From IMG/VR virus record IMGVR_UViG_3300050821_014047, positions 1 to 63,432 of that record: 63,432 nucleotides of DNA; one strand, written 5' to 3'. Under the pieces are notes generated by a model. It saw only the letters and a program-made list of their open reading frames with translations. It did not search any database and had not been told where the DNA came from. The position numbers were made by a program, and so were the translations under genes. This document shows positions 1-63,432 of this stretch, in pieces. The number at the start of each line of letters is the position of its first letter. Position 1 is the first letter of the stretch. Source of the stretch: a virus.

Positions 1-98
1 CATCGGTCAGACGGGGCAGTTCGCTGACTTCAACTCCATCGTTCAAGGCGACGTTTCGCAGCAGGACTGGCAAATCATCACGCCGGGAGACGCGCCGA
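1..98. repeat. Terminal direct repeat, left copy (circular closure)
   Basis: These 98 bases are identical to 63335-63432. The repeat lies inside a protein-coding gene and the reading frame stays open across the join, which is what an assembled circular molecule looks like. A true short terminal redundancy is the alternative; it would be odd in the middle of a coding sequence. Confidence 0.95.
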
Positions 99-1546
99 CC
101 ATTCAGCCAAACGCTGCCTCGTCTGGGGACGGGTACCTCGACGCGACCCTCGTCAACCCGTCGCTCGGTACCGGGACGTACGTTCTTGAACAGGCGTTTT
201 CGGCTCCGCCTGGCGTAACGTCAATGTCGTTCGAGATCGACGCGACGAGCGGCCCCAACGGGACCAACACATTCCAAATCTTCTTCATGGACACGAGCGG
301 AACCGTCACGCTGGCCTCCGCAAACGTAACGACAACCGGTTTGGTATCGACTTACTCGACCGGGCCCGTGAACGTTACGCCGGGGACGAATTACCGAGCT
401 CGCATTCTTCTCAATTCGGTCACCAATCCGTCGCAGGCGCTCATTAGCCGAGCTCGCGTGAGGGTTCTTGCGGGAACGAACGCTCTCTTTCAAGAGCCGT
501 GGGTGAGGTACAACGCTTCGCCTCAGTTTCTTTGGGACAATGGGCACGATGAGCTCGTGGCGGTGTTCAACTCCACATACAACTACGTGCGTTACCACTC
601 TCCCATGTCTCGTCTGGTGTTTGAGACCGACGCGGACGTTATTGGGATTCAGACAATAAACGTACTCGGCTTCTCTACACCTTCGGGCGGTTTTGCTCAG
701 GTTCTTGTTGTTGTAAACGGTCGACCATGGAAAACGGTCGTTGGTGCGCTAGGGGCGTACGACGTTCAAACCGTCGACCTGCCAGACGGAACCAACACGG
801 TCGAAGTCGTAGCAAGCTGGGGCGAATTTTACGGAGATTCTGTCCCCACTCCCACGGAGCCCATCTACAAATATACGCAGCAGTCATTTCTCTGCTCGGT
901 CATGGCACCGATCGAGGCAGCATTCAAAATTATCATGCCTCCGCAGCCGAACACCAGACTGCTCATTTTCGGTGACTCAAAAGATACTGGATACGCTGCG
1001 ACCATCCCGACCGTGCAGGGATGGCCCGCACTTCTTCGAAAAGATTTTCCAACAGCAAGCGTAGCGATGGAATGTCAGGCTTCCGCTTCGCTATACGCTA
1101 ACGCGTATACCGCAGCGATTCAGCAGGCAACCATCACCAGGATGGTGCAGTATCGGCCCACTACACTGCTGTTTATGCACGGAAGAAATGACTGGGGAGA
1201 TAGCTACCAGTCGGCTGCATCTTATCAGACAATGGTTGAGACGTTCCTATCGGCGTTTCACGCTGTATACCCTTCCTGTTCGATTGTTTGCATATCGACG
1301 TGGCTCGAGAGTACGGCTCAGGAATCGTCGACAAACACGTTTGGCGAAACGCTTCAGCAATACCGAAACGCGATGCAGGCCGCGGCAGCGACGCAGGCGT
1401 ATTACGGATTTTTGGACGGAACTACGATTCCTGGTTGGAATCAGGTCACCAGTCTATACGACGGCATTCATCCGAACGACCAGGGAAGCTACCAGATCGA
1501 AAATTGGCTAGTTCCGTTGCTTGCGATTCCGCAATCGGTAGGGTGA
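1..1546 (+). CDS. Fibre/spike protein with SGNH (GDSL-like) hydrolase domain, main part
   Basis: This is the continuation of the gene that starts at 63249; joined across the 98-base overlap the protein is 543 residues. The N-terminus (starting MRETLARRAKT) is a short helix followed by a Gly/Ser hinge and matches the N-terminus of the next gene. After beta-rich sequence, the C-terminal third carries SGNH hydrolase blocks: GDS with Ser near residue 355, an Asn-Asp near 425-426, and DGIHP with Asp 516 and His 519 as the likely catalytic partners. In fibres such domains deacetylate or de-esterify host surface glycans. An ATG at 224 is only an internal methionine. It is followed after three bases by the next fibre gene. 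Confidence 0.85.
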   Translation, partial: IGQTGQFADFNSIVQGDVSQQDWQIITPGDAPTIQPNAASSGDGYLDATLVNPSLGTGTYVLEQAFSAPPGVTSMSFEIDATSGPNGTNTFQIFFMDTSGTVTLASANVTTTGLVSTYSTGPVNVTPGTNYRARILLNSVTNPSQALISRARVRVLAGTNALFQEPWVRYNASPQFLWDNGHDELVAVFNSTYNYVRYHSPMSRLVFETDADVIGIQTINVLGFSTPSGGFAQVLVVVNGRPWKTVVGALGAYDVQTVDLPDGTNTVEVVASWGEFYGDSVPTPTEPIYKYTQQSFLCSVMAPIEAAFKIIMPPQPNTRLLIFGDSKDTGYAATIPTVQGWPALLRKDFPTASVAMECQASASLYANAYTAAIQQATITRMVQYRPTTLLFMHGRNDWGDSYQSAASYQTMVETFLSAFHAVYPSCSIVCISTWLESTAQESSTNTFGETLQQYRNAMQAAAATQAYYGFLDGTTIPGWNQVTSLYDGIHPNDQGSYQIENWLVPLLAIPQSVG

Positions 1547-1549
1547 GAA

Positions 1550-2587
1550 ATGAACAACGTGCTATCCCGCAGGGCAAAGACAATCGCCGACGAAGCTCTC
1601 CTTCGGTCGGTTCACAACGGCGGTGGCGGCGGCGGTATCACGCAGCTGACGGGAGAAGTCATGGCCGGCCCCGGGTCCGGAGCTCAGGTCGCGACGGTGG
1701 CCGGTGGGTACGAAGGGGCCTTGTATGTTACGCCAACAGGCAACGATACGACCGGCAACGGTACGATTTACAAGCCATACGCAACGATCTCCAAGGCGCT
1801 TCTGGAGGCTGCCACAGGCGCCAGCATCGCCACTCCAGCCACCGTGCTCGTGGGCGCCGGAACATACGCTGAAAGCTTGCTGCTGCCGCCTAGCGTTACG
1901 GTCATTGGTATAGATCCATCACAGACAGTGGCCATAACCGGAGACGTTTCGCTCTCCTCTGGCTGGACCGGCCTATCTGACCAAGAGCAGACAGGGCTGT
2001 CTAATATCTTCGTAGAAGGAACTACGACAATCGATTGGGCTGCGCAATCTCAAGACAGCGGTATCGTGTTCTTCTTCAACTGCTCCATAGAGGCTATTTC
2101 GGCAACTGGACTAGGTACAGACAACGAAGTCGTATTTGTGGCCTGCTTTATTTCTGGGCTCGGAACATTTACCTCTGTCGAAATGTCAACTCAGAGCTGT
2201 GCTTTTTCAGCAGGAGTTGCGCTGGCCTCAACGGTCAGCCATCCGGCAGAATACCTGTCTAACGGAGACTCGATTACACCTACATTTAGTGTCACGTCAC
2301 CGTCCGGTGGCGATGAATGTACTTTCATTGGACTAGGTACTGCGGTGGCGGGTACCCTCACAATCAACGGCGCGAACACCAGCTATACGACGTCCGCAGA
2401 CGGAATCCCGCTGACCGTTACTCAACTGAACGGTGCTCCTGCTCCGATCATCTCTTCAGGCGGAGCTGGCGCAACCGTTTACACTCCTACCGTTCCCGGT
2501 AACTGGGCTGGCTCGCCGCCAACGACCGTACAGCAAGCACTCGACAGAATCGCAGCGAACACGAGCAACACTCATCCTATTCCATGA
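1550..2587 (+). CDS. Fibre protein with predicted right-handed beta-helix
   Basis: A 345-residue protein. Its first 20 residues (MNNVLSRRAKTIADEALLRS) resemble the N-terminus of the preceding SGNH fibre, followed by a hexaglycine linker and one ITQLTGE...AGPGSG repeat that is also found three times in the fibre at 60192. The middle has YVTPTGND...GTIYKPYATISKAL, typical of the DUF1565/pectate-lyase-like beta-helix entry, and then short repeating strands. The shared N-terminus probably docks on the particle while the helix contacts or cleaves host polysaccharide. No catalytic residues could be assigned. Confidence 0.75.
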   Translation: MNNVLSRRAKTIADEALLRSVHNGGGGGGITQLTGEVMAGPGSGAQVATVAGGYEGALYVTPTGNDTTGNGTIYKPYATISKALLEAATGASIATPATVLVGAGTYAESLLLPPSVTVIGIDPSQTVAITGDVSLSSGWTGLSDQEQTGLSNIFVEGTTTIDWAAQSQDSGIVFFFNCSIEAISATGLGTDNEVVFVACFISGLGTFTSVEMSTQSCAFSAGVALASTVSHPAEYLSNGDSITPTFSVTSPSGGDECTFIGLGTAVAGTLTINGANTSYTTSADGIPLTVTQLNGAPAPIISSGGAGATVYTPTVPGNWAGSPPTTVQQALDRIAANTSNTHPIP

Positions 2588-2943
2588 CCCCAGGCATCGT
2601 CACCTTCCCGAGCAAAGCGACCGTCTCGGTTGACATCGCCGAACGGCCCGAAGAGCAAGCGAAGGGTCTCTCAGGTCGGACGAGTCTCACGGCGGACAGC
2701 GGGATGCTCTTCTGGTTCGGGACGAGGGCCGATCATGGCTTCTGGATGAAGCGCACCCTCATCCCGCTCGACATCGTCTTCATCGATTACGGGCGCGTCG
2801 TGGGCATCTTGACGCTCCAGCCGCTCGATGAGCGTTCGTTCCGGTGCGGAAGGCTTTCTTCGTGTGTCTTGGAAGTGAATGGGGGCTTTTGCGAGAAGAA
2901 CGGGATTTTGGTCGGAGATTCGGCCCAGATCTCTCTCGCGTGA
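2584..2943 (+). CDS. DUF192 family protein
   Basis: A 119-residue protein that matches DUF192 across its length: the RPEEQAKGLSGR element, a GMLFWF strand, the GFWMKRT.IPLDIVFID core, and a final GDSAQI strand. DUF192 proteins are small beta-barrels, usually exported; their biochemical role is not settled. There is no signal peptide here, unlike most cellular members. The ATG overlaps the stop of the fibre gene by four bases, so it is translated with the fibre cassette, perhaps as an assembly factor or minor particle protein. Confidence 0.75.
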   Translation: MTPGIVTFPSKATVSVDIAERPEEQAKGLSGRTSLTADSGMLFWFGTRADHGFWMKRTLIPLDIVFIDYGRVVGILTLQPLDERSFRCGRLSSCVLEVNGGFCEKNGILVGDSAQISLA

Positions 2944-2962
2944 CACTCTCGCGGCAGCCGGC

Positions 2963-4821: not shown

Positions 4822-5088
4822 ATGAAGACCCGATCGGCTCGGTACTATCGCTCGAACCCACTCTCAGACACCGAGCTAATCGTCGGCGGTCTCGTCGGCG
4901 TAGCAGTGTTGGGCATAGGAGGCTACTTCTTGTACAGCCACTTTTCGACTGCAGGTCAGGCTGCAGCTCAGGCTGGCACAAACCAACTCACCTCGGGCGC
5001 ACCTTCCGCTGGTGGGGTTGCCGTCCAGGGGGTCGACGCCAACGGCAACCCGACGATCAACGGCTACCCTGTCGTATCTGGGGGCTAG
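4822..5088 (+). CDS. Small single-span membrane protein, RxNPL family
   Basis: An 88-residue protein. A basic N-terminus (MKTRSARYYR) leads into SNPLSDTEL, then a membrane span (about residues 20-39, VGGLVGVAVLGIGGYFLY), then a Gly/Ala/Ser-rich tail. The layout of basic segment, Asn-Pro, acidic residue and span is shared with the next three genes and with distant genes at 25147, 26401, 26647, 28145 and 51656. It is first in a nine-gene run. A virion membrane protein is the most likely role; the function is unknown. Confidence 0.8.
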   Translation: MKTRSARYYRSNPLSDTELIVGGLVGVAVLGIGGYFLYSHFSTAGQAAAQAGTNQLTSGAPSAGGVAVQGVDANGNPTINGYPVVSGG

Positions 5089-5091
5089 CCC

Positions 5092-5403
5092 ATGCGGCGT
5101 CGTAGAGGCTACCACCGTCCGAATCCGCTCGTGGAGGTCGACTCGACCGATCTGCTCATCGGCGGGCTCATCCTCGGCGGCGCTGCCATTGCGGTGGGGT
5201 ATCTGGTTGGAAACGCAACCAGTTCTGCAACGACGAGCTCGGCACCTACGGTCGCGCCTGCAACGACCCCGACAGGCGGAGGTCAGAGCACCAGCGCAAC
5301 TACGTCGACCCCCACGGCCCCAGTTCCATTCCCACCTGCCGGTCACGTCGTAAACAGCACCATCTCTGGAAACGGCATCAACACCGGAGGATCCTTCGCA
5401 TGA
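5092..5403 (+). CDS. Small single-span membrane protein, RxNPL family
   Basis: A 103-residue paralogue in layout of the gene before it: MRRRRGYHRPNPLVEVD, then a span of about 20 residues (LLIGGLILGGAAIAVGYLV), then a long Thr/Ser/Pro-rich low-complexity tail. It is separated from the previous stop by only three bases, and its own stop overlaps the next ATG. No catalytic motif is visible. Confidence 0.8.
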   Translation: MRRRRGYHRPNPLVEVDSTDLLIGGLILGGAAIAVGYLVGNATSSATTSSAPTVAPATTPTGGGQSTSATTSTPTAPVPFPPAGHVVNSTISGNGINTGGSFA

Positions 5404-5819
5404 GACGCCATCGCTACTCGAGGCCGAACCCCCTCTCCGATACGACCATCCTTCTTCTCCTCGGTGGCAGCGTGCTCGCTATCGGTGCCATCGTGCTCTA
5501 CTCGAGCCCAGCGCAAGCCTCGAACGCCTGGCCCGCGTCGCAGTTCACATTGAGTCCCACACAGGAAGCTCAGTCTCCGGGCGGCCAGGCTCAGGTTGGC
5601 GAGTTCGTGATCCTAAACGATTCGACGACGGGGCAGAGCATCATCGTACAGGTCACGTCGACCGACGGTGTCTCGGCTGCAGGGACCGTCGCCTACGCTC
5701 CAACCCTCGCGTCCGAAAGTACGGGCGATAGCGTGATGTTCAACCTCGTAGACGTCGTCGCGGTCGGAACGAGTATTTCACAGCTACAGAGCCAGACCGG
5801 CATCTGGCAGTCGCTGTAG
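5400..5819 (+). CDS. Membrane protein, RxNPL family, with folded C-terminal domain
   Basis: A 139-residue protein. It opens with MRRHRYSRPNPLSDTT and a span at about residues 16-35 (ILLLLGGSVLAIGAIVLY). Unlike its neighbours, the region after the span (residues 45-139) looks folded, with strands such as GEFVILND, SIIVQVTSTDG and VMFNLVDVVAVG, so it could expose a small beta domain on one side of a membrane. Confidence 0.8.
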   Translation: MRRHRYSRPNPLSDTTILLLLGGSVLAIGAIVLYSSPAQASNAWPASQFTLSPTQEAQSPGGQAQVGEFVILNDSTTGQSIIVQVTSTDGVSAAGTVAYAPTLASESTGDSVMFNLVDVVAVGTSISQLQSQTGIWQSL

Positions 5820-5828
5820 GTTTTCGAG

Positions 5829-5999
5829 ATGAAGGACGAGTCGCTCTCGGATACCGAGCTCATCGCGGGCGGCCTTGCGAGCGTTCTCCTTCTAGGACTG
5901 GGGGTATTCCTGGTGACCAAAGCTACGCAGACTGCTACCACGCCAACCGACTCGCTCGAGGATACGACGGCGTTGGCGACGATTGCGACAGTCGTATGA
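5829..5999 (+). CDS. Small membrane protein, 56 residues
   Basis: This short gene reads MKDESLSDTELIAGG followed by a hydrophobic span ending near residue 30, then a Thr-rich tail. SLSDTELIAGG is almost the same as the SNPLSDTELIVGG of the gene at 4822, but the basic residues and the Asn-Pro have been lost, so it looks like a truncated paralogue. Its stop overlaps the next start (ATGATG). Confidence 0.75.
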   Translation: MKDESLSDTELIAGGLASVLLLGLGVFLVTKATQTATTPTDSLEDTTALATIATVV

Positions 6000-6427
6000 T
6001 GGCAGCCATGGCACTCGGAGCGCTAGCGTTGGGAGAGCTACCGCCACCGGCAGAGGGAGACCAGGAACCGATGGGGTTTGGACGCATCCCGCTCGAGCCG
6101 CACCTGTACGGCGCGTGGCCGTTCACAGGTTTTCCACAGCAAGTCTCGATCAACGGCGTGACGTACGTGAAGGCTCGCTACCGCCTGCCGATGAGCGGCG
6201 TTGTGCAGCAGTACCGCGAAAACGTGCCAACAAACGCGCAGCACCTTTGCGTCTACCGAGACGGCAGCTACCTCTGTAACCACATGGACGAGGTTAACCC
6301 CGTCTCGTTCTCCACATGGCTGCAGCACGCCGCAGTCGACACGCCCGGACTGCTCGCCAAGACGCTCGCGATCGCAGGCTTCGGCATTGGGCTCGTTGGC
6401 GGGCTTTTGCTTTTGGAGGACTCATGA
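5996..6427 (+). CDS. Tail-anchored protein of membrane-protein operon
   Basis: A 143-residue protein with a soluble region that contains PMGFGRIPLEPHLYG, a strand-rich middle with a CVYRDGSYLC pair of cysteines, and a C-terminal membrane span (about residues 118-138, LLAKTLAIAGFGIGLVGGLL). The orientation is opposite to its neighbours, whose span is near the N-terminus. PMGFGR resembles the GxGQ-type motif of the structural genes, but lacks Gln. Confidence 0.7.
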   Translation: MMAAMALGALALGELPPPAEGDQEPMGFGRIPLEPHLYGAWPFTGFPQQVSINGVTYVKARYRLPMSGVVQQYRENVPTNAQHLCVYRDGSYLCNHMDEVNPVSFSTWLQHAAVDTPGLLAKTLAIAGFGIGLVGGLLLLEDS

Positions 6428-6681
6428 ACTCCCCGAGCGGTGTCGCTCTCGCCGAGGAGGACCTCATCCTGATCGGCGTCGGGCTCTTCGTACTCAGCGT
6501 CGCGGGTTGGCTCATCTATCGAAAGGTGAACCAGGAGCTCGATATCGTTGCGGATGCTCTTCCGTCCGGCTCTGACGCGCAGTCTGCGGTAAACAACATC
6601 TTCACGGGACCTGCGAACCAAGGCTCGGACGTGATGCCAGGCTCCCCAGACGACCCCGAGAACTATCAGGGGTATGAATAG
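6424..6681 (+). CDS. Small single-span membrane protein
   Basis: An 85-residue protein with a short acidic N-terminus (LAEEDLI), a span at about 12-33 (ILIGVGLFVLSVAGWLIY) and an acidic C-terminal tail ending in DDPENYQGYE. ATG 6424 overlaps the previous stop. It shares LAEE before the span with the next gene, so the two appear to be a tandem pair. Confidence 0.75.
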   Translation: MNSPSGVALAEEDLILIGVGLFVLSVAGWLIYRKVNQELDIVADALPSGSDAQSAVNNIFTGPANQGSDVMPGSPDDPENYQGYE

Positions 6682-6684
6682 ACC

Positions 6685-6960
6685 ATGGGTTTCGTCGACC
6701 TCGCGGAAGAAGAGATCGTCCTGATCAGCGCCGGCGTCGTCATCGTTGGCGTCATGGGATACCTGATCTACCAGAAGGCCTCGAGCGCAGCGGCGTCGCC
6801 GGCAGGGCAGGATTTCCAGCAGGGGCTCATCAACGGACTCGTTCCTTCGCTCGATACGCAACCAGCGACCATCGCCGGCCAAGCCGCGGGTGCTGCAGCC
6901 GGGGCTGTCGCGCCTGTACAAGGAACCAATTCGCCCTCCGCAGGAGGTCCGGGTGCCTAA
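6685..6960 (+). CDS. Small single-span membrane protein
   Basis: A 91-residue protein starting MGFVDLAEEEIVLI with a span to about residue 28 and then an Ala/Gly-rich tail. It resembles the preceding gene (acidic LAEEE, then VGVMGYLIY ending in a Tyr-basic border). Confidence 0.75.
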   Translation: MGFVDLAEEEIVLISAGVVIVGVMGYLIYQKASSAAASPAGQDFQQGLINGLVPSLDTQPATIAGQAAGAAAGAVAPVQGTNSPSAGGPGA

Positions 6961-7183
6961 GCTCGTCAAGTACTCCTCGACCATCGAGGTCGACGACAGC
7001 ACGAAGACCGTGCTGATGGTCGCGGGTGTCGCGACCGTTGGCGTGCTCGGCTACATTCTCCTCAGCAAGCTCCTCCCGAGCGCTCCGACCGCGTCCGCTG
7101 TCAGCTACGCGGCGACCGACGACGCGACATCGCCCGTACCCACGCCGATCGGTACAAGCCCGCTGCCTGTGCCACCGAACTGA
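6953..7183 (+). CDS. Small single-span membrane protein, GTG start
   Basis: A 76-residue protein. GTG 6953 is chosen because CAGGAGG lies directly upstream and the next in-frame starts would remove the basic N-terminus. After VPKLVKYSSTIEVDDSTK comes a span (VLMVAGVATVGVLGYILL), then a Ser/Thr/Pro tail. It overlaps the gene before by eight bases. Confidence 0.7.
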   Translation: MPKLVKYSSTIEVDDSTKTVLMVAGVATVGVLGYILLSKLLPSAPTASAVSYAATDDATSPVPTPIGTSPLPVPPN

Positions 7184-7311
7184 TGATCGTCATCTTCCCG
7201 AAACGCTTCTTTGACGAGCTCGTTCGCGACCACCCTTCGTTCGCCGTGATCTTCTTGCTCTGCGGCGCGACCCTGTTCGGCTTCGCGGTATGGCTGGTGT
7301 TCTGGGGCTAG
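7183..7311 (+). CDS. Short hydrophobic protein, 42 residues
   Basis: The ATG overlaps the previous TGA. The protein has a short amphipathic start (MIVIFPKRFFDELVRDHPS) and a C-terminal span (FAVIFLLCGATLFGFAVWLV). It ends against the convergent gene at 7308-7634, so the membrane operon stops here. Confidence 0.65.
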   Translation: MIVIFPKRFFDELVRDHPSFAVIFLLCGATLFGFAVWLVFWG

Positions 7312-8061: not shown

Positions 8062-9051
8062 ATGTCCCCTGACGCCATCGTCCGAGTCGAACAGCCCCAG
8101 CTCCCACTGGCACGAGAGCTACTCGAGCAGGCTGATATCTACGCCGGAGCAGCGCTCTCCCCAAACACCAGGCGTGCGTACCGCCGAGACTGGGAGGTTT
8201 TCGTCGCGTGGTGCTCTCAGAACGGCCGAAACGCGCTTCCGGCCGACCCTCAGACCGTCGTGGCCTACCTCGCGAGCCTCGCGGAGCAGAAGAAACCCGA
8301 CGGAACCCCCAAGTTTCGCGTTGCTTCGATAGAGCGCGCGCTCACTTCCATTTCAACAGCACACGACGTGGCTGGGTTTCTCGCTTCCCGCAAGAACAAG
8401 CTCGTTAGCAAGACCATGAGCGGCATCGCGAAGACGTTCGGCGAGCCTCAGACGCAGAAAGCCCCCCTTCGACCGAACATGCTGGGAGACATGCTGCTCC
8501 ATCTGCCCCCAGGGCTCCTCGGAATGCGCGATCGAGCTCTCTTGCTCGTCGGATTCTGCGGCGGATTCCGTCGATCGGAGCTCGTTGCTCTCGACGTGAA
8601 GGACCTCGCGTTCGTCGAGGACGGGCTCCAGGTCATGATCCGGCGAAGCAAGACCGATCAGCGAGGGAAGGGACGCAAGATCGGACTTCCAATGGGCTCA
8701 ACAGCTCTCAGATGTCCCGTTCGCTCGACGAAAGCTTGGCTGGACGCTGTTTCTCTCACAGAGGGCCCTGTCTTCCGTGCTGTTTCGCGCCACGGAAAGC
8801 TTTCGCAGGACCGTCTTTCCCCTCAGACGGTCGCTCTGGTGGTCAAGCGGTACGCAAAGGCCGCTAAAATCAACGAGAAGAGCGTTTCTGGGCACTCACT
8901 TCGCGCGGGGCTAGTGACGTCTGCCTACAAGGCGCACAAGACGCACGACGCAATCATGGCGCAAACAGGGCACCTTTCGTTCGAAATGGTCCGTCGGTAC
9001 ATTCGGGACGCGTCACTGTTCGAGGACAACGCAGCCGCGGGCCTGCTGTGA
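8062..9051 (+). CDS. Tyrosine recombinase / integrase
   Basis: A 329-residue protein of normal length. The N-terminal 110 residues form a SAM-like core-binding domain (SPNTRRAYRRDWEVFVAWC). The catalytic domain shows the full set: Arg 170/171 in GGFRRSEL, Lys 197 in SKTDQ, His 278 and Arg 281 in GHSLR, His 304 in TGH and the nucleophile Tyr 313 in RRYIRD. It starts after GAGGAATGTAA and stands alone between minus-strand genes. It may integrate the element into the host chromosome, or resolve multimers of a circular genome. No attachment site could be identified. Confidence 0.92.
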   Translation: MSPDAIVRVEQPQLPLARELLEQADIYAGAALSPNTRRAYRRDWEVFVAWCSQNGRNALPADPQTVVAYLASLAEQKKPDGTPKFRVASIERALTSISTAHDVAGFLASRKNKLVSKTMSGIAKTFGEPQTQKAPLRPNMLGDMLLHLPPGLLGMRDRALLLVGFCGGFRRSELVALDVKDLAFVEDGLQVMIRRSKTDQRGKGRKIGLPMGSTALRCPVRSTKAWLDAVSLTEGPVFRAVSRHGKLSQDRLSPQTVALVVKRYAKAAKINEKSVSGHSLRAGLVTSAYKAHKTHDAIMAQTGHLSFEMVRRYIRDASLFEDNAAAGLL

Positions 9052-17846: not shown

Positions 17847-17852
17847 TATGCT
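17847..17852 (+). promoter_or_regulatory. TATGCT box for 17860
   Basis: The box lies in TTGAGGTATGCTC and ends 7 bases before ATG 17860, with no ribosome site between, which implies a leaderless mRNA. The same extended sequence occurs at 4788-4799. Confidence 0.5.
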
Positions 17853-17859
17853 CTCCGGC

Positions 17860-25688: not shown

Positions 25689-25702
25689 CCAAGGATCTCA
25701 GC

Positions 25703-49108: not shown

Positions 49109-49119
49109 GGAGAAAACTC

Positions 49120-52023: not shown

Positions 52024-52458
52024 ATGGAGAAGACGCCGAGTATCCAGATCGAGTCGACTCGGGTCGCTTTCGAAATGGCCGATGGTCGAGTGATCCGACT
52101 CCCGCCTGGGTACGGTACGTTTCACGATCCAACCGGAAAGTTGATTCCGAAATGCACGATCTACTTCGGCCCGTTCAAGAAAACGGGGCGACGAGTGGAG
52201 ATGACGCGCGAGCAGAGAAGGTACTTCGGGCCTGAGCACAAGGCGTACCTGGCCGTCATTCCCAATCTCAAAGAGGGAGGATGGAAAGTGCTCGGCAAGG
52301 CCGTGCAAATTTTCTATTTTCGACGAGGCCAGCGCGCAAGGGGTGGGTACTTTCACCCGTTCGTACACCACCCTGGAACACTCTCGAAGGCTGGCAGGAT
52401 CTACAAGCTCAACCTAGGGTCGTGTCTCGTTGACGATCGAGGGTACGTCTATCCATGA
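52024..52458 (+). CDS. Hypothetical soluble protein
   Basis: A 144-residue basic protein: IQIESTRVAFEMADGRVIRLPPGYG, YFGPFKKTGRRVEM, then KAVQIFYFRRGQRARGG. Strand-rich. No family recognised; it may be a minor structural protein or assembly factor. Confidence 0.55.
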   Translation: MEKTPSIQIESTRVAFEMADGRVIRLPPGYGTFHDPTGKLIPKCTIYFGPFKKTGRRVEMTREQRRYFGPEHKAYLAVIPNLKEGGWKVLGKAVQIFYFRRGQRARGGYFHPFVHHPGTLSKAGRIYKLNLGSCLVDDRGYVYP

Positions 52459-53104: not shown

Positions 53105-53130
53105 GACTCGAATCTATCTCATGGTATCTT
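53103..53130 (+). promoter_or_regulatory. Candidate promoter for 53138
   Basis: ATGACT and TATCTT are 16 bases apart and the second ends seven bases before ATG 53138. It overlaps the divergent promoter for the minus-strand gene, so the two may exclude each other. Confidence 0.45.
53111..53116 (-). promoter_or_regulatory. TAGATT box for 53104
   Basis: On the minus strand the box ends six bases before the ATG at 53104. It is nested within the spacer of the plus-strand promoter. Confidence 0.45.
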
Positions 53131-53137
53131 GCGGTGC

Positions 53138-54938: not shown

Positions 54939-56201
54939 ATGAGGAAGTCGAATTTCAGTCGTGAGCAGAACCCCGGTCGTCTCATCGGTCTCGGGCAGAG
55001 CCCGGCCGACAACGTAGTCAACTCGGTTCTGTCCTGCGGCTTCACGCAGGTGCCGGTCATCGAGTACGTGACGTGGACGGTCGACTTGCCCGTTCCCGAC
55101 AGCGCGATTCCCGGCACCTTCGGTGACGAGATCGATGTCCTCCAGAACCCCAAGTCGGTTCCTGGCGTGACGGACGTCGACAGCTCGTTCGTCATCAACG
55201 GCATCCTCCAAGTCGACATGCTGGTCATCGGCTTCGGCATCCACGGCTTCGCGGAGCCGCAGAACGGAAGCCAGATCGGCAACTACGTCAACCCGGCCCC
55301 CACGGCCGGCGCCGTGAATCCGTCTCCCGACAGCTACACCCAGAACGACGTCATCAACGGCGCGCTCGGTGCGGACATCGGGACGGGCGGCGTGGCGGGT
55401 GCTTCGACCATCACCCCGGCGGTGCTCGAGTGGGGCGTCTGCGCGCAGAACGCGCTCTGGCACCTCATGAACGCGTACCAGTTCCAGTGGGTCATGCAGC
55501 AGCGCTACTTGCTCATCAATGAGCTGGCGGCGGACGTGGCCTACTTCGGCAGCTATGCCGAGGCGGTTGCTGCGGGCTCATCGAGCGAGGCGTTCCAGCG
55601 GCTCGTCAAGCGCGTCAACACCAAGTACGCCGATCTCGGCGCACCGGGCGCGTTTCTCCCGATCAATGCTCAGCGCATCGGGTCGACCACGACCCTCACG
55701 ACGAGCAACAAGGGCGTGTTCCACCCGACCCGCGCGTACGACCTTCTGGACGTGACCTGGGGCGGCCTTCGCGCTCAGGGCATGACGGGTATGATTCAGC
55801 CCTTCCGGAAGCTCTTCAAGCCCGTTCTTCTCGAGCGAGGCATTCCGATCGGAATGCTCCTACGAGCTCAGGACGAGTACCACCAGACGCTCATGCAGCA
55901 GTACCTGTCCCAGACGGACAGCTTGGGCGGTACGGTGTCGACGATCTCGATCGGCCCCGTCACGAGCGGTCTCACCTCGACGAGCTCCAGCGAGTTCAAC
56001 GAGCTCACCCTCGACGCGACCCCGGTCATCGCGAACCAGCAGGTTCAGACCGACCGCGTGCTCTTGAAGGGCGGCGCGCTCCAGCTTGCCATCCTCATCA
56101 AGGGCTTCGAGGTGTGGGGTCCCTGGAAGCAGTACATCCTGAACAACCTCGTCCCGAGCGGCGCGGTCGGCACGGCGCAGTCAGCCGGTTCGGCTTCGTA
56201 A
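54939..56201 (+). CDS. Candidate major capsid protein
   Basis: A 420-residue protein. NPGRLIGLGQSPADN places the GLGQ motif at residues 17-20. The rest is strand-rich (EYVTWTVDLPVPD, LQVDMLVIGFGIHGF, TVSTISIGPVTSG, LQLAILIKGFEVWG) with a helical centre (NALWHLMNAYQFQWVMQQRYLLINEL). No HK97-type signature is visible; two beta-rich halves around a helical insert could suit a jelly-roll capsid protein. A good AGGAG site, its own leader and a strong hairpin after the stop fit high expression. The identity is inferred from size, position and expression signals. Confidence 0.5.
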   Translation: MRKSNFSREQNPGRLIGLGQSPADNVVNSVLSCGFTQVPVIEYVTWTVDLPVPDSAIPGTFGDEIDVLQNPKSVPGVTDVDSSFVINGILQVDMLVIGFGIHGFAEPQNGSQIGNYVNPAPTAGAVNPSPDSYTQNDVINGALGADIGTGGVAGASTITPAVLEWGVCAQNALWHLMNAYQFQWVMQQRYLLINELAADVAYFGSYAEAVAAGSSSEAFQRLVKRVNTKYADLGAPGAFLPINAQRIGSTTTLTTSNKGVFHPTRAYDLLDVTWGGLRAQGMTGMIQPFRKLFKPVLLERGIPIGMLLRAQDEYHQTLMQQYLSQTDSLGGTVSTISIGPVTSGLTSTSSSEFNELTLDATPVIANQQVQTDRVLLKGGALQLAILIKGFEVWGPWKQYILNNLVPSGAVGTAQSAGSAS

Positions 56202-56269: not shown

Positions 56270-56875
56270 ATGGAGCCCAAGGCACAGTTTCTACAGGAAA
56301 TCGCGATGGTCGATCCCATCGCGGCCTACGGGATTGTCATGGGCATCCCCCGCATCCCGATCTCGTTCAACGCGGCGGGGAGCTTCTCCTCGTTCGCGCT
56401 AGGGGCCATTCCCATAGAGGCTGGGCTCGATACCACGATCGCGCAGCGCACGTGGATCGACAACATGCAGTACAGCCTGCAGCAGCCGAACGTGTTTACG
56501 GGGTCGGTCTTCAAGACTCTCTACGACGCGATGCTCAAGGCGCAGCCTGGTATCTCGATCCGCTGCACGGTGCATTCGGGACCTCGCTACATGGTGAGTC
56601 CGCAGTTCACCCCGCTCGAGAACTTCGTCAACCTGCTCGCGTCGCGGTACCCCGCTGGATGGCCGCTCTACAAGCAGCAGAACATCGAGATCGAGTACAT
56701 GCTGACGCAGGCGCCACCGTCGAGTGGCGGAAACGCGCCGCCCTACAACGTGACCCTCACGTTCAACGGCTGGCAGTTCCTTGATCACACGGTCGACGAG
56801 ATCTCGGTGGATGTTGCTGCGTGCAAGCTTCGCGATCTCGGATTCTTCGTCCCCAAGGCCGTGGAGTGCCCCTAG
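56270..56875 (+). CDS. Candidate structural protein (201 residues)
   Basis: A strand-rich protein: IPRIPISFNAAGSFSSFALG, ISIRCTVHSGPRYMVS, QNIEIEYMLTQAP, NVTLTFNGWQFLD. It has no signal or span. Its place between two larger candidate capsid proteins suggests a minor capsid, penton or vertex protein. AAGAGGAA precedes its ATG. Confidence 0.5.
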   Translation: MEPKAQFLQEIAMVDPIAAYGIVMGIPRIPISFNAAGSFSSFALGAIPIEAGLDTTIAQRTWIDNMQYSLQQPNVFTGSVFKTLYDAMLKAQPGISIRCTVHSGPRYMVSPQFTPLENFVNLLASRYPAGWPLYKQQNIEIEYMLTQAPPSSGGNAPPYNVTLTFNGWQFLDHTVDEISVDVAACKLRDLGFFVPKAVECP

Positions 56876-56890: not shown

Positions 56891-57829
56891 GTGCGTCGAA
56901 GCCGAATCGAAATCTCCACTGTCGGGTACAATCCGAACCTTGAGCTGGTCGGATCGTCTGCGCAGGGAGGGCCGAACGATCTAGGTCTGTTCATCGGGCC
57001 GAACGATGCGGCGACCGCGTCGAATCTGCGGCAGATGTTTGTCCTGGCGGCGAAGCACTTCAACGCGCATCAGAAGGGTCGTCTTGTCGGCTACCGGCAG
57101 TACTTGACCATCGGCGTGCCGCTTACGACGGCGTCGACCGACGCGTTTTATCTGCTCGAGCGGCCCGTCGTTACGCCGACGTGGAAGTTCGTGGATGGAA
57201 ACGTGTCCTGGGGCATCCGGAGGCTGGTCGACCCCAAGAACTATCCGGCTACGGGCAACAAAGAGGGCCTGATGTTCCGGTACTCGCAGACCCCCGCGCA
57301 GCTCTTCGAGACGATCTTCTCGACTGGTGGGATTCTGCCGTTCGACCCGGACATCCTCATCACGCCTCCGTACGGCGGGCAGTTCCAGGGTACGGCACTA
57401 TCGCCCGATCTTTTTCAGTTCTACGACATGCGTGCGGACTCGTGGTCGCGCATCATCGAAACGGACATCGAGTTTCAGGGGCCGTGCGACATCGCGTTCT
57501 TCGCGAGCATTCAGCAGACCAACCCCTCGACACGCGAGAACCCTCCGGCGACACCTACCTTCACGACGCTCGCGGGAGCGGTGCCGGAGGATGCGTTCGT
57601 GCAGACGTACGCGGGCGCGACGTACCAGCGCATCGCCGGCTCGCTCATCTTCGAGGTCGAGGAGTGGGCGCCGGGAGGGATGCCGAAGACGTACCTCCGC
57701 ACGGCTGACGGTGACCGCCTGACGCGCGACACGGCCGAGACCGGCAGCAACGAGATTCGACGAAGCGGGCAGGACACGGTCACAAACGAAGCGTGCGAAG
57801 GTGACCCAGCCATTCGGGTGAAGCCATGA
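56891..57829 (+). CDS. Candidate structural protein (312 residues)
   Basis: Starts at GTG 56891 with AGGAGG upstream. Beta-rich with a QYLTIGVPLTTASTDAF...RPVVTPTW strand region, GGILPFDPDILITPPYGG, and DIEFQGPCDIAFFASIQQTNP. No family match. By size it could be a second capsid protein or a spike base. Its stop overlaps the next ATG. Confidence 0.5.
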   Translation: MRRSRIEISTVGYNPNLELVGSSAQGGPNDLGLFIGPNDAATASNLRQMFVLAAKHFNAHQKGRLVGYRQYLTIGVPLTTASTDAFYLLERPVVTPTWKFVDGNVSWGIRRLVDPKNYPATGNKEGLMFRYSQTPAQLFETIFSTGGILPFDPDILITPPYGGQFQGTALSPDLFQFYDMRADSWSRIIETDIEFQGPCDIAFFASIQQTNPSTRENPPATPTFTTLAGAVPEDAFVQTYAGATYQRIAGSLIFEVEEWAPGGMPKTYLRTADGDRLTRDTAETGSNEIRRSGQDTVTNEACEGDPAIRVKP

Positions 57830-58179
57830 GCTACCGCTACGTCGAAGGTCTCGGCTGGTGCCCCTGCGCAGCACCTGCGGTGGGCGTCTCTCAAGCGCCG
57901 TCCTGTTGCGGCGGGTGTGCTTCCGGGACGGGGTGCGATACCGAGTGCTCGAGTGGCGGGTGCGGAGGCAACCCATGTACGCCGATCCCGCACGTCGTGC
58001 CGCAGGGTGTCCCTGGACGGTCGGCGTTTCCTGTCGGCTTCGGGCAGGCTTCGACAGCGAGTAACACGGCGACCATCGCAGCGTCGGCGGTGAGCGGGTG
58101 GGCGGTTCCTTTGGCGGTGGGGGCAATCTCGCTCGCTGCCGGGTTCGGTCTTGCGTACGTGATTTCAGGAAGGAAATAG
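57826..58179 (+). CDS. Tail-anchored Cys-rich small protein
   Basis: A 117-residue protein. Thirteen cysteines lie in the first 60 residues (CCGGCASGTGCDTECSSGGC), then FPVGFGQAS, then a span (AVPLAVGAISLAAGFGLAYVI) with a short basic end. The GFGQ resembles the processing-like motif and would free the Cys-rich part from the membrane anchor. Confidence 0.7.
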   Translation: MSYRYVEGLGWCPCAAPAVGVSQAPSCCGGCASGTGCDTECSSGGCGGNPCTPIPHVVPQGVPGRSAFPVGFGQASTASNTATIAASAVSGWAVPLAVGAISLAAGFGLAYVISGRK

Positions 58180-58183
58180 GCCC

Positions 58184-58555
58184 ATGGAGGACATGTACAG
58201 GCACCAGGTGCGCGGGCTCGGACAAGACCTCGGGTCGGCCGCGGGCATGGACGGGTCGGACGACGGTTCCGACAGCGGGAGCAACTCGCTTTCGAATCCA
58301 GACGCTGCAACCGTACTCAACCCGGTCGGAGGTGACGACTCCTCGAGCGGAGGAGGGTCTTCTGGCGGGTCTTCGGGCGGAAGCTCGGGAGCCGGCTCTT
58401 CTGTCTCGAGCGCGCTCAGCGGTCTCTCGGCCGACCTTTCGGGCAACCTCCCGCTTGTCCTCGGCGGCGTTGCTGTTGTCGGAGGCATTGGGGTGGTCGC
58501 GTACCTTGCGCATCGGAAGCATGTACAGGGCGGCGGCTCTAGAAAGAGGAAGTGA
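58184..58555 (+). CDS. Tail-anchored protein with RGLGQ motif
   Basis: A 123-residue protein: QVRGLGQDL with Gln 14, a Ser/Gly/Asp-rich disordered middle, then a span (LPLVLGGVAVVGGIGVVAYLA) and a basic end (HRKHVQGGGSRKRK). The end AYLAHRKxV is shared with the next gene, so the two are paralogues at the C-terminus. Confidence 0.75.
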   Translation: MEDMYRHQVRGLGQDLGSAAGMDGSDDGSDSGSNSLSNPDAATVLNPVGGDDSSSGGGSSGGSSGGSSGAGSSVSSALSGLSADLSGNLPLVLGGVAVVGGIGVVAYLAHRKHVQGGGSRKRK

Positions 58556-59199
58556 TGGGCGCGTTCTCTTGGAGCAAACCAGGCCGCAGCGCCACCGTCC
58601 CTCGTCGGAGCCCGATCGTGCACCGCCCTGGTGCTGGCGCGAAGGGCCCTCACAAGTCTGTGGCGTCGAAAGGTCGCGGACTCGAGTCCAACCCGTCGAA
58701 CGTTGGTGGAGGCGGAGTGAAGGCGAAGGGCCTCGGCCAGAATTACCAGTGGGACCGCTACCCCGGCGAGTACTTCCCGGATGTGCCGGCGCACACGATG
58801 AGTGTCGGTCTCGCGGGCACGTGGCCGCCAGCGGGCGTCTGGCCTCCCGCGAACATCCAAGACCCGCACATGCCTCCCGGGAGCGGTCCACTCGGACCTC
58901 AGGGTGGCGGGACGACCTATCCGCAGTGCTCCCCTCCGTGTCCTGTCGGTTTCGGGCAGAGCAGTGACGGGTCTGACCTTCCTGTCGTAAATACGCCTAT
59001 TCCAGGTGACGGGACCGACGCAACGACCTCGACGCTTACGCCGCTGCCAGGAGCCATCAACCAAACTGCGACTCCTGCGGCGACCGCGACGGGAACTTCG
59101 AGCACGAACACCGGCATGCTGGTCGTTGGCGTCTTGGCGCTCGCTGCTGGCATCGGCGGCATCGCCTACTTGGCCCACCGGAAGTCCGTAGGGGGTTGA
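58555..59199 (+). CDS. Tail-anchored protein with GLGQ and GFGQ motifs
   Basis: A 214-residue protein with a basic start, KAKGLGQNY at residues 57-64, a Pro/Gly-rich section (WPPAGVWPPAN), PVGFGQSS, a Thr-rich linker, and a C-terminal span (MLVVGVLALAAGIGGIAYLAHRK). Two motif copies in one chain would release a middle fragment. ATG 58555 overlaps the previous stop. Confidence 0.75.
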   Translation: MGAFSWSKPGRSATVPRRSPIVHRPGAGAKGPHKSVASKGRGLESNPSNVGGGGVKAKGLGQNYQWDRYPGEYFPDVPAHTMSVGLAGTWPPAGVWPPANIQDPHMPPGSGPLGPQGGGTTYPQCSPPCPVGFGQSSDGSDLPVVNTPIPGDGTDATTSTLTPLPGAINQTATPAATATGTSSTNTGMLVVGVLALAAGIGGIAYLAHRKSVGG

Positions 59200-59201
59200 A
59201 A

Positions 59202-59564
59202 ATGCGGATCCTGCTCGTCGAAGACAGTCCAAACGACTTTGTTCTCGAGTCGCGTGTCATACGCGCGGCCGGGCACGAGACCGTGTGGGCTCAGAACGGC
59301 GAGGAGTGTTTCAAGATCCTTCGAAGCGAAAAGATCGACGCCATCGTCCTCGATCTCGACCTCCCTCGAATGAACGGTCATGAGGTCCTCGGTCGCTTGA
59401 GGCTCTCTCGCTGGGAGCGCGTTCCGGTCGTCGTTTGCACCGGGGGCGATACGCACGAGGAGGGGACCTTTTTGACGGCGGTCGTCATGGTGAAGCCTCT
59501 TCAGGCACCTCGCCTCTTGGCTGCTATCGCTCGAGGTCAGCGACGACTCGCTGAAGCTTCTTGA
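59202..59564 (+). CDS. Stand-alone response-regulator receiver domain
   Basis: A 120-residue CheY-like protein. All key residues are present: acidic pair Glu 7 and Asp 8, phosphoacceptor Asp 51 in VLDLDLP, Thr 80 and Lys 98 in VKPL. No output domain follows. It would need a host histidine kinase. ATG 59202 is used; TTG 59196 overlaps the previous stop and would add two residues. A receiver domain in a virion-gene operon is unusual. Confidence 0.85.
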   Translation: MRILLVEDSPNDFVLESRVIRAAGHETVWAQNGEECFKILRSEKIDAIVLDLDLPRMNGHEVLGRLRLSRWERVPVVVCTGGDTHEEGTFLTAVVMVKPLQAPRLLAAIARGQRRLAEAS

Positions 59565-60199
59565 TGGCCTGCTATTCTATGGAAAGATTTTCGATGCCCG
59601 GCCCCCCCGAGAGACCCCCGCTGCCACCGCCCCCGGCGCCAGAAACGCTGCGCGGGGTGATTGACGGCATTCTGTCCATCAAAAAGAGTCTGGCAGAAGA
59701 GGCAGCAAAGGCGGAGCGCCGGCACGCAGAGACAACAAACGACGTCGCCGACGTGCACCAAGAGGTTCTCTATCACGGCGTGCGTTTGAAGCGAGTCGAG
59801 GAGGCTGTCGCGCTCCACACCGAGCAGATCATCGAGCTGCAGCGTCTCCCGCGCGTGCGGCAGGTGAAGGTTTCGGTTGACCAGCCGATTGACCTGGGCA
59901 GGTTCGTCGACGCCGGGGACAGCGGGATTCATAAGATCGTTGAGGGGGCTGAGATTCAGAAGTGGCTCGAGGAAAAGAAGGCTGCCGAGCTCGCGCTTCA
60001 GAAGGCGCTTGAGGAGCACGATCTCGAGAGGGAGAGAGCTGCTGCGCTTCGGAACCAGAAGTGGGTGCTTTCGAAGATCGGGGTGGTCGTTGTTGCTTTG
60101 GCGGTCACGGCCACGACAGCCATCGTAACGCTGTCGGTATCAGTGTTGCTAGACAAGGCCCGGCAAACGTCCGGGCACGTGGAGAAGAGCCATGAATAG
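59564..60199 (+). CDS. Coiled-coil protein with C-terminal membrane span
   Basis: A 211-residue protein. Pro-rich start, coiled coil at about 30-90 (SIKKSLAEEAAKAERRHAE), a second helix at about 140-165, then a span (IGVVVVALAVTATTAIVTLSV). It overlaps the receiver gene by one base and the fibre gene by eight. It could be an adaptor between membrane and fibre; its pairing with a receiver domain also allows a signalling role. Confidence 0.65.
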   Translation: MACYSMERFSMPGPPERPPLPPPPAPETLRGVIDGILSIKKSLAEEAAKAERRHAETTNDVADVHQEVLYHGVRLKRVEEAVALHTEQIIELQRLPRVRQVKVSVDQPIDLGRFVDAGDSGIHKIVEGAEIQKWLEEKKAAELALQKALEEHDLERERAAALRNQKWVLSKIGVVVVALAVTATTAIVTLSVSVLLDKARQTSGHVEKSHE

Positions 60200-61952
60200 G
60201 GGTATCCCGATCGCCGCCGTTGCGTTGTTGGCCGCCGAAGGTCTCTATCGCCCCGTGGGCGGAGGTGGAGGGGGTGGTGGCATTACGCAGCTCTTGAGCG
60301 ACGTGACGGCCGGTCCCGGCTCGGGAGCGGTTCCGGCAACGGTCGTCGCAATTCATGGCGCGTCCGTCCCTGCGGCGGGGGCCCTTACTACGGGGAACGT
60401 GCTTCAGGTCACGGGAGCTTCTGCTCTCGGCTACGCGCCCGTGAACCTCGCTGGCGGGGCCAATTTTGTCACCGGCCTCCTTCCTGTCACGAACATTGCA
60501 CCTGCCGGAACGAACGGCTTCGTTCTCACGACAACCGGTGGCGCAACGGTTTGGGCTGCTGCCGCAAGCGGCGGGATCACGCAGCTCACGGGTGATGGTA
60601 CCGCGGGCCCCGGCTCAGGATCTCAAGCGCTCACGGTCGTTCGGATCAACGGGGCGACAGTCCCGGCAGCCGGGTCTCTCACGACCGGCAACGGGCTCTA
60701 CGTCACTGGCACGAGCGCGCTCGGGTACTCGGCGCTCAACCTGGCTGGAGGTTCTGGGTACGTTACGGGTCTTTTGCCTGTGGCCAACATTGCCCCAGCA
60801 GGAACGAACGGGTTCGTTCTGACAACGACGGGAGGGGCGACCGTCTGGGCTGCGGCTTCTGGAGGAAGCGGGATCACGCAACTCACTCAAGATGTGACCG
60901 CTGGACCCGGGAGCGGATCGCAGGCGGCTACGGTCGTTCAAGCTCAGGCCGGCGTATTCGCTTTTTCGTCGGGCGGGACTCAGACGTGGTCGTCGGTATC
61001 GACGCCGATTCTTGTGCAGACCGCGACATCGGGTGCGACGGGCGCGAACTTTTCTATTACACCGCAGACGTCATCAAACGGTTCGGCCAACACTGGCGGA
61101 AGTCTCGTTGTCAATCTCCAAACCCCGCTGGGTAGCGGAACGGAGGCGGCCCTCCAGATCAACCGAGGTGGTACGCCCGTGGCGGCCATGGGCCCGCTTC
61201 CTAGCGCCGGTTCTACGTTTTCAGCCGTCTGGCTCGGAGCAGCATCACTGCCGACGACAGCATCGAACTACAACATAGGCAGTAACGGATCGACAACCAA
61301 CTTCAACGCTTCGACGCAGGTCAATGTCGTCATTGCCGGATCTCTCCCGGTCATGGCGGGCATCGGCGAAGGTGTTCAGCTATTCAGTTTTACTCCGGCT
61401 CTCGCTGGCGGCGTCGGCGTGCTGGGGATTACCGCAGCCGGGACACTGCCGACCACGCTACAGACGTCCGGCATCGTTCTCGCGTCTTCTATTGCGGCAG
61501 GATTGACCGGCCTTCATGGGTACCAGGCCGGCAGCTTCTTCACCGATCAAATGCTTTTCCCACTTTTCCAGGGAACGCAAAATACGCAGGTCGGGAAAAT
61601 TTACCAGTACGCAGGAGTATGCACGACGCCAGCCGGTTCCCCGGTAACGATCTGCGCAATTCCTCTCGCGACTGCAAGTACGTCGGTCGGTATTACCGCA
61701 ACGATGACCGGACGGAACGTGAACGGACTCGTGGCAGTCATCACTCAAGTCTTGGGGTTCAAGAACGTTTCGGGGACCGTGACTGCCGTCTCGACTCAAG
61801 CGACACAGCAAATTTCGGCCGATACGGGGCTCAGTACGTGTGCCATTGGCGTAAACATTTCTGGCACAACAGTGCAACTGACAGCGGTGCCGCCGGTCTC
61901 AAGCAGCACCAGCATCGACTGGACGATGAAGGTGGAGGCGATGTACACCTAG
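60192..61952 (+). CDS. Gly-rich repeat fibre
   Basis: A 586-residue protein. An Ala-rich N-terminus and an eight-Gly hinge are followed by three copies of a unit starting ITQL..D.TAGPGSG and containing NLAGG...TGLLPV.NIAPAGTNGF, with unit length of roughly 95 residues. The C-terminal 290 residues are a different, beta-rich domain. Repeats of this kind form trimeric shafts in phage fibres. It overlaps the coiled-coil gene by eight bases. Confidence 0.8.
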   Translation: MNRGIPIAAVALLAAEGLYRPVGGGGGGGGITQLLSDVTAGPGSGAVPATVVAIHGASVPAAGALTTGNVLQVTGASALGYAPVNLAGGANFVTGLLPVTNIAPAGTNGFVLTTTGGATVWAAAASGGITQLTGDGTAGPGSGSQALTVVRINGATVPAAGSLTTGNGLYVTGTSALGYSALNLAGGSGYVTGLLPVANIAPAGTNGFVLTTTGGATVWAAASGGSGITQLTQDVTAGPGSGSQAATVVQAQAGVFAFSSGGTQTWSSVSTPILVQTATSGATGANFSITPQTSSNGSANTGGSLVVNLQTPLGSGTEAALQINRGGTPVAAMGPLPSAGSTFSAVWLGAASLPTTASNYNIGSNGSTTNFNASTQVNVVIAGSLPVMAGIGEGVQLFSFTPALAGGVGVLGITAAGTLPTTLQTSGIVLASSIAAGLTGLHGYQAGSFFTDQMLFPLFQGTQNTQVGKIYQYAGVCTTPAGSPVTICAIPLATASTSVGITATMTGRNVNGLVAVITQVLGFKNVSGTVTAVSTQATQQISADTGLSTCAIGVNISGTTVQLTAVPPVSSSTSIDWTMKVEAMYT

Positions 61953-62979: not shown

Positions 62980-63203
62980 TGCCTCGGGGACTACCAAGGT
63001 CCATCCGCGTGCCACCTGTCGCACACAAACTGTTCGAGGCCTTTACGAAGCAGCTCAGTGAAGTCTTCACGAATGCCGTGGCGGGAGCGGTGGACGACGG
63101 GCTCGAGCGGGTCGAGACCAAGGTCCAGGAGGGCTTGGGACGTATCCGTCGTGCTAGAGGGGTGGCTCAAAGGCGCACCCGACGAGGCCGCAAGCCGTCG
63201 TGA
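62979..63203 (+). CDS. Small basic helical protein
   Basis: A 74-residue protein: HKLFEAFTKQLSEVFTNAVAGAVDDGLERVETKVQEGL then RIRRARGVAQRRTRRGRK. A helix with an Arg tail, maybe nucleic-acid binding. Confidence 0.55.
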   Translation: MPRGLPRSIRVPPVAHKLFEAFTKQLSEVFTNAVAGAVDDGLERVETKVQEGLGRIRRARGVAQRRTRRGRKPS

Positions 63204-63212
63204 CGGCTGTTC

Positions 63213-63241
63213 GTGACGTACGGCATAGGGTGAAGTAGTCT
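63213..63241 (+). promoter_or_regulatory. Promoter for SGNH fibre gene
   Basis: GTGACG and TAGTCT are 17 bases apart, the latter ending seven bases before ATG 63249. The same -35 form (GTGAC) is seen at 4770. Confidence 0.55.
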
Positions 63242-63248
63242 TGCGCTC

Positions 63249-63432
63249 ATGCGCGAGACACTGGCCCGTCGGGCAAAGACTGTGGCCGACATCGCGCTAT
63301 ACCGCGCGCTTCTAGCCTCTGGTGGTAGCGGCACCATCGGTCAGACGGGGCAGTTCGCTGACTTCAACTCCATCGTTCAAGGCGACGTTTCGCAGCAGGA
63401 CTGGCAAATCATCACGCCGGGAGACGCGCCGA
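63249..63432 (+). CDS. SGNH fibre gene, 5' part (continues at 1)
   Basis: The start of the 543-residue fibre. MRETLARRAKTVADIALYR is followed by Ser/Gly hinge and then the sequence found from base 2. Its first 20 residues match the N-terminus of the fibre at 1550 (RRAKT[VI]AD), which suggests a common docking segment. Confidence 0.85.
   Translation, partial: MRETLARRAKTVADIALYRALLASGGSGTIGQTGQFADFNSIVQGDVSQQDWQIITPGDAP
63335..63432. repeat. Terminal direct repeat, right copy
   Basis: These bases equal 1-98 exactly and keep the frame of the fibre gene. They should be removed once to obtain the circular sequence. Confidence 0.95.

Follow-up and report, generated by a model that had tools for sequence, protein, structure and literature searches.

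A candidate family of large, probably tailless viruses with circular genomes and a conserved virion gene block

Salisaeta icosahedral phage 1 (SSIP-1) has a 44-kb circular double-stranded DNA genome and a tailless virion with an internal membrane, a T=49 architecture and possibly a single jelly-roll capsid fold (PMC6260650). The core of Sulfolobus polyhedral virus 1 (SPV1) is a circular nucleoprotein, which lies beneath an inner layer of lipid (PMC8459092), and both SPV1 and FLiP do without packaging ATPases, thus providing precedents among jelly-roll viruses (PMC8812541). Here we describe the IMG/VR virus record IMGVR_UViG_3300050821_014047, analyzed over its full length of 63,432 nucleotides (hereafter, the window), and a family of related records. 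The window probably represents a large tailless icosahedral virus with an internal membrane and a jelly-roll-type shell, whose circular DNA would be condensed on a basic membrane protein without the aid of a motor.

The first and last 98 bases of the window are identical, as seen by exact matching and by pattern search, and a frame of 532 codons that encodes a GDSL/SGNH hydrolase domain runs uninterrupted through the join. The exact overlap and the open frame give good support for a genome of 63,334 bp that is either circular or circularly permuted. An earlier note, made from the sequence alone, had judged the genome apparently complete; completeness is now confirmed for the window and for ten further circular relatives.

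Stepwise alignment searches with a 420-amino-acid (aa) protein of the window (positions 54939-56201) retrieved 33 further IMG/VR loci with 41-88% identity, some of them nearly identical to one another. Eleven records, the window included, are complete circles by terminal overlap, and their unit lengths are 59.9, 63.3, 66.9, 70.5, 79.5, 80.1, 85.5, 111.3, 116.2, 124.5 and 127.4 kb. Large size (60-127 kb) is thus a property of the whole family and not of one odd genome, which extends to 11 complete circles the earlier remark that the window is far larger than PRD1-like phages. The possibility that the 127.5-kb relative is a dimer was discarded as unsupported, and its virion block is present only once. 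The G+C content is 0.61 in the window versus 0.38 in one relative, and such a wide spread suggests that the relatives infect diverse hosts. The window itself is best explained as a virus of bacteria or archaea.

The 420-aa protein had no match among 50,697 phage records. A 24-aa stretch with 79% identity in a Rhodobacterales metagenome-assembled genome (L072:9401-10081) falls within a regulator gene of the aminotransferase type, whose neighbors are unrelated, and was dismissed as probably chance or a contig error. Circularity, the presence of integrase and replication genes and the fact that the virion is known from genes alone could also be accommodated by a non-viral element, either a plasmid or a secondary replicon, that carries surface-protein genes. 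Such an element would, however, have to encode lysozymes and fibres and share a syntenic block across 34 IMG/VR loci, while the 420-aa protein finds no match among 72,556 plasmids and no credible match among 84,980 species genomes. We regard this explanation as the least probable of those considered.

Practically every predicted protein of the window was scanned with PHROGs, Pfam and NCBIfam, and no match to terminase, portal, tape-measure, tail-tube or HK97 models was obtained, in agreement with the earlier claim that such proteins are missing. Two sub-threshold matches are not credible: one to 'tape measure' (E 0.067) and another in which the Sak4 ATPase matches 'terminase' (E 0.026). Among 32 family records, TerL (phrog_2) gave nothing except three weak matches: those in G001 and G003 fall on the superfamily 2 (SF2) helicase, and the third lies in a frame of similar length. 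Models for Terminase_6N, portal and HK97 were likewise negative in the 11 complete genomes, yet these models and that of TerL do match in control genomes. Hence, at profile level, the marks of Duplodnaviria/Caudoviricetes (large terminase, portal and HK97-fold capsid) appear to be absent from the complete genomes. If the virus were a tailed phage with terminase, portal and capsid genes too divergent to be recognized, the fibre-like genes, the PHROG 'tail protein' match, the lysozymes and the phage-type replication and recombination module would be explained; this is nonetheless very improbable given the behavior of the models in family and control genomes, the lack of a large tape-measure-like gene and the viral jelly-roll neighbors of the best conserved block protein, described below.

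A Walker-A scan of all frames in the window detected coding matches in the Sak4-like ATPase and the primase-helicase only; two further matches lie in antisense frames. The SF2 helicase was recognized by profile and not by the scan. Scan and profiles together leave the three Walker-type ATPases listed in the earlier note, none of which had been considered a packaging motor. The absence of FtsK/A32-type ATPases extends across the family, as FtsK/SpoIIIE (PF01580) was above the cut-off in 0 of 32 records. HerA-like ATPases were detected in two of the 11 complete genomes, the window not among them, which indicates that they are not core genes of the family. They are located at L136:1204-2181 and L137:2171-3940, in relatives of 111 and 125 kb, and might be accessory packaging ATPases. 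Most Varidnaviria/Bamfordvirae possess a packaging ATPase of the FtsK/HerA (A32-like) type, FLiP and Odin being exceptions. In view of the counts above, this mark of Varidnaviria/Bamfordvirae seems to be missing from the window, as does the FtsK/HerA packaging ATPase of Helvetiavirae (Sphaerolipoviridae, Matsushitaviridae and SSIP-1-like viruses). As judged by profiles, the lack of an FtsK/A32-type ATPase sets the family apart from PRD1-like phages.

The family shares a virion block with a fixed gene order across 34 loci, the window included: RadC/JAB protein, Pro/Gln-rich protein, cysteine peptidase, Arg/Lys-rich transmembrane protein and, last, the 420-, 201- and 312-aa proteins (Table 1). 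The order was established with profiles of window genes, within reach of the fetched flanks, and the 420-, 201- and 312-aa genes are found in all 34 loci. In the 66.9-kb relative (L138), inspection by eye indicates that the replication module is replaced by DNA polymerase A-like, RuvC-like and Dda-like helicase genes, with the virion block kept.

An AlphaFold2 model of the 420-aa protein built from 30 sequences reached a predicted local distance difference test score (pLDDT) of 70.4 and a predicted template modeling score (pTM) of 0.71; 30 sequences were required, as the pLDDT was only 31 with six. The model contains 19 strands, and its helices include residues 167-179, 216-232 and 313-323. 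When the model was compared with PDB and BFVD using Foldseek, the nearest neighbors in both libraries were nearly all viral jelly-roll capsid proteins, none of them significant alone: papillomavirus L1, picornavirus VP2, infectious bursal disease virus VP2, SPV1, a mavirus minor capsid protein and cressdnavirus capsids. SPV1 appears among these neighbors with E 0.72 and a TM-score of 0.16/0.33 (target 0.33). The neighbor of highest probability (0.51, target TM-score 0.45) is I1ZBH9, a protein of 211 aa; this is also the length of SSIP-1 gp46, but identity with gp46 could not be confirmed. The gene at 54939 was one of those listed in the earlier note for structure prediction; the model obtained is rich in beta strands and lies closest to viral jelly-roll capsids, but no match to a double jelly roll was significant. 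On the basis of the model, we propose for the 420-aa protein a role as major shell protein and a fold of the jelly-roll type, either single or double.

Profile searches of the PDB yielded no significant match. The only PDB match of the 312-aa profile, enterovirus VP1, had a non-significant E of 0.055, and no credible database match was found for the 201-aa protein. An arrangement with two shell proteins encoded by adjacent genes, as in Helvetiavirae, was also considered: the neighboring 201- and 312-aa products would form a pair of vertical single-jelly-roll capsid proteins, one small and one large, and that of 420 aa would occupy a vertex or lie beneath the shell. The order and sizes of the 201- and 312-aa proteins resemble those of P23-77 VP16 (174 aa) and VP17 (291 aa) and of SH1 VP7 and VP4, and the weak VP1 match points in the same direction. 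This arrangement is unlikely, however, as profiles detected no similarity to proteins of P23-77, SH1 or SSIP-1, a Helvetiavirae-type FtsK ATPase is lacking, and conservation within the family is highest for the 420-aa protein, which itself looks jelly-roll-like.

Besides the putative shell, the block encodes a candidate maturation system. The peptidase matches Pfam Transglut_core (PF01841) in 21 of 26 members, and the triad formed by Cys119, His151 and Asp167 is invariant in all 26. A Cys-His-Asp triad within a Transglut_core domain is the mark of the transglutaminase-core (papain-fold) cysteine peptidases, to which the protein can be assigned by its sequence. In some relatives the peptidase gene is interrupted by inteins, with Hint found in 4 of 26 members and LAGLIDADG in two, and at L004:4874-7516 the intein is inserted at the catalytic cysteine (GD-C). 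In the 17 proteins of the virion block and lysozyme set, the motif G-[LVFM]-G-[QR] was counted 13 times versus 1.1 expected from shuffled sequences, an excess of about 12-fold (maximum of 6 in 2000 shuffles), a count that must be considered exploratory as the motif was picked after inspecting the sequences. In all other proteins of the window, one occurrence was observed and 1.9 were expected. The motif in the 420-aa protein follows an N-terminus that is basic and variable, and its two glycines show conservation of at least 90%. The simplest reading, suggested by the distribution of the motif, is that it may mark sites recognized by the cysteine peptidase during maturation, by analogy with adenovirus; cleavage by the RadC/JAB protein would be the alternative.

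The basic protein of the block contains a 100-residue stretch with 42-57% Lys+Arg in every untruncated copy. In the window, 46 of 100 residues in one stretch are Arg or Lys, and two hydrophobic segments follow. By analogy, the protein is a natural candidate for a nucleoprotein role like that described in SPV1. A sequence NPLSGGE that precedes its transmembrane segments resembles an NPLSDTE-like N-terminal motif shared among small transmembrane proteins encoded by two arrays elsewhere in the window. Hydropathy analysis predicts a transmembrane segment in 33 of 107 window genes, which substantiates the abundance of membrane proteins noted earlier, and several block proteins have theirs at the C-terminus. 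The C-terminally anchored block proteins and the two arrays of tiny transmembrane proteins would fit an internal membrane, with lipid as the presumed component.

Altogether, a model can be proposed in which the 420-aa protein would form the major shell, and the 201- and 312-aa proteins would accompany it in the shell or at the vertices. The Arg/Lys-rich transmembrane protein would condense the circular DNA and tether it to the inner membrane, and the shell would assemble around the resulting core of DNA, protein and membrane, so that no packaging motor would be needed. Once the particle is assembled, the cysteine peptidase would cut at the G-[LVFM]-G-[QR] sites in proteins of the shell, the core and the membrane. 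Entry would involve a membrane-anchored lysozyme and fibres that bear an SGNH esterase. The earlier view that the genome is complete and belongs to a virus without a tail, whose particle probably contains a membrane, gains support from genome completeness and the lack of tailed-phage hallmarks in 11 complete genomes, from the jelly-roll-like neighbors of the model and from the transmembrane proteins; the membrane, the exact capsid fold and the particle are what we infer.

Several observations weigh against the model and moderate our confidence in it. Foldseek produced no match at E < 1e-3 for the 420-aa protein in either library, and the global TM-scores of its neighbors are mostly around 0.1. 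A profile test for a double jelly roll found no internal duplication between the halves of the protein, a result that is either negative or uninformative. When profiles of the 420-, 201- and 312-aa proteins were compared with 359 open reading frames (ORFs) of SSIP-1, P23-77, PM2, PRD1, SH1, FLiP and STIV, the best probability was 3%, and membership in the families of these viruses is therefore not claimed. To these must be added the HerA-like ATPases of two relatives, the exploratory nature of the motif count and the fact that the family is known here from genes alone.

The fibres, lysis-type enzymes and replication module mentioned in the earlier note were recovered as profile matches (GDSL fibre, lysozyme-like protein, primase-helicase, SF2 helicase and Sak4). 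The SF2 helicase has 915 aa, compared with frames of ~510-540 aa in close relatives; the insert begins and ends as an intein would (C-LDDKTEIL and GN-T), and Pfam did not call a Hint domain in it. Profile scans also detected an Rv2525c-type glycoside-hydrolase-like protein, a DUF192 protein and a response-regulator receiver. A receiver-only response regulator lies at 59196-59564, between the virion-block and fibre genes. One ORF shows a PHROG cysteine-dioxygenase match (E 4.7e-37) and another contains an RF-1 release-factor domain (E 1.1e-5). Coding is ill-defined and conserved genes are few in the stretches at 9-15 kb, 19-22 kb and 29-31 kb.

Table 1. Features of the window, in order of position (TM, transmembrane).
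Position	Strand	Feature	Basis
1-98	none	Left copy of terminal overlap	Exact identity with 63335-63432; assembly signature of a circular genome
1-1546	+	Remainder of GDSL-hydrolase fibre-like protein	PF13472 E 9.8e-12
1550-2587	+	Fibre-like protein	PHROG 4577 'tail protein' E 3.8e-7; N-terminal 51 aa common with relatives
4822-7311	+	Array of nine small single-TM proteins, several sharing an NPLSDTE-type N-terminal motif	Hydropathy, sequences; similar genes in relatives
8062-9051	+	Tyrosine recombinase/integrase	PF00589 E 1.4e-16
17848-18537	+	Protein resembling lytic transglycosylases, with RGLGQ and a hydrophobic C-terminus; probably a lysozyme of the virion	Weak SLT/hub matches; homologues in 6 loci
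25345-28333	mostly +	Second array of small single-TM proteins	Hydropathy, sequences
31969-34221	-	Toprim primase fused to D5/SF3-like helicase	PHROG 6088 E 4.7e-65; Pfam Pox_D5, Toprim
35466-36332	+	PD-(D/E)XK exonuclease	PF12705 E 3.1e-12
36343-37473	+	Sak4-like RecA-fold ATPase	phrog_124 E 3.3e-36; in 7 of 11 complete genomes
38223-40970	+	SF2 helicase with intein-like insertion	PHROG 16 E 5.1e-84; relatives align only outside the insert
44091-45077	+	RadC/JAB-domain protein heading the virion block	PF04002 E 2e-32; upstream of block in 21 loci
45863-47401	+	Pro/Gln-rich conserved block protein	28 loci
47499-48806	+	Glycine-rich protein, C-terminal TM	Hydropathy; homologues in 3 close relatives
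48797-50798	+	Three C-terminal-TM proteins (48797-49108, 49120-50394, 50391-50798), two with RG[LV]GQ	Hydropathy, motif search
50802-51659	+	Transglutaminase-fold cysteine peptidase, candidate maturation protease	PF01841 in 21 of 26 members; triad C119, H151, D167
52024-52458	+	Small conserved virion-block protein	7 loci
53129-54862	+	Arg/Lys-rich, two TM segments, RGVGR/RGVGQ motifs; may be a core protein that is anchored in the membrane and condenses DNA	33 loci; composition; TM
54939-56201	+	Best conserved protein of the family (420 aa); predicted major capsid protein of jelly-roll type	34 loci; AlphaFold2 and Foldseek
56270-56875	+	201-aa conserved shell protein candidate	34 loci
56891-57829	+	312-aa conserved shell protein candidate	34 loci; weak enterovirus VP1 match E 0.055
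57826-59199	+	Three C-terminal-TM proteins with G[LF]GQ (57826-58179, 58184-58555, 58552-59199)	Hydropathy, motif search
60192-61952	+	Repetitive Gly-rich fibre-like protein	Sequence; N-terminal part common with relatives
63282-63432	+	Start of 532-aa receptor/fibre-like protein with GDSL/SGNH hydrolase domain, running on across the join to 1546	Open frame
63335-63432	none	Right copy of terminal overlap	Exact identity with 1-98; pattern search agrees

The family is apparently undescribed so far: no description was found in the literature searched, whose coverage left subscription papers and preprints largely outside. A tentative proposal, which we put forward with less confidence than the model above, is that it may constitute a lineage at the rank of order or above, with circular genomes of 60-127 kb, tailless membrane-containing particles, motorless packaging by a membrane-anchored protamine-like protein, maturation by a transglutaminase-fold protease, and a shell protein related only distantly, if at all, to known jelly-roll capsids. 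As the virion shell genes match no profile library, surveys based on known hallmark genes would miss such viruses, and the conserved virion block offers new markers for them.

With 44 kb, SSIP-1 is the largest tailless membrane phage in the literature searched; if the family described here is tailless, such particles can hold up to 127 kb, and how so much DNA enters the shell without a recognizable motor becomes a question. SSIP-1 resembles the window in having circular double-stranded DNA far above PRD1 size, an integrase and a lysozyme. It differs in having a virion ATPase, gp40, and the three shell candidates show no profile similarity to SSIP-1. Tectiviridae, Corticoviridae and Finnlakeviridae (PRD1, PM2 and FLiP, with double jelly rolls) are comparable in their tailless architecture and internal membrane (both presumed in our case), many small membrane proteins and virion lytic enzyme. 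Their genomes, however, measure only 9-15 kb, a packaging ATPase is encoded by PRD1 and PM2, and no profile similarity is seen. Portogloboviridae (SPV1), which are marked by homologous single-jelly-roll capsid proteins and the nucleocapsid protein VP1, likewise have circular double-stranded DNA and lack a packaging ATPase; a single jelly-roll capsid, a lipid layer and a nucleoprotein core would be further likenesses, and SPV1 is a Foldseek neighbor. In contrast, SPV1 is a 20-kb archaeal virus whose TM-score is only 0.16/0.33, and its International Committee on Taxonomy of Viruses profile names no maturation protease.

Adenoviruses have a cysteine protease, Gly-containing sites spread over several virion proteins and an Arg-rich core protein. 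The peptidase of the window is transglutaminase-fold and not of the adenain/Ulp1 type, and the resemblance to these protease-bearing jelly-roll viruses is one of workings rather than of membership: a cysteine protease encoded beside capsid genes, glycine-containing sites spread over virion proteins, and a basic core protein (putative in our case). The presence of protease, basic core protein and shell in a single block may bear on the evolution of adenovirus-like maturation.

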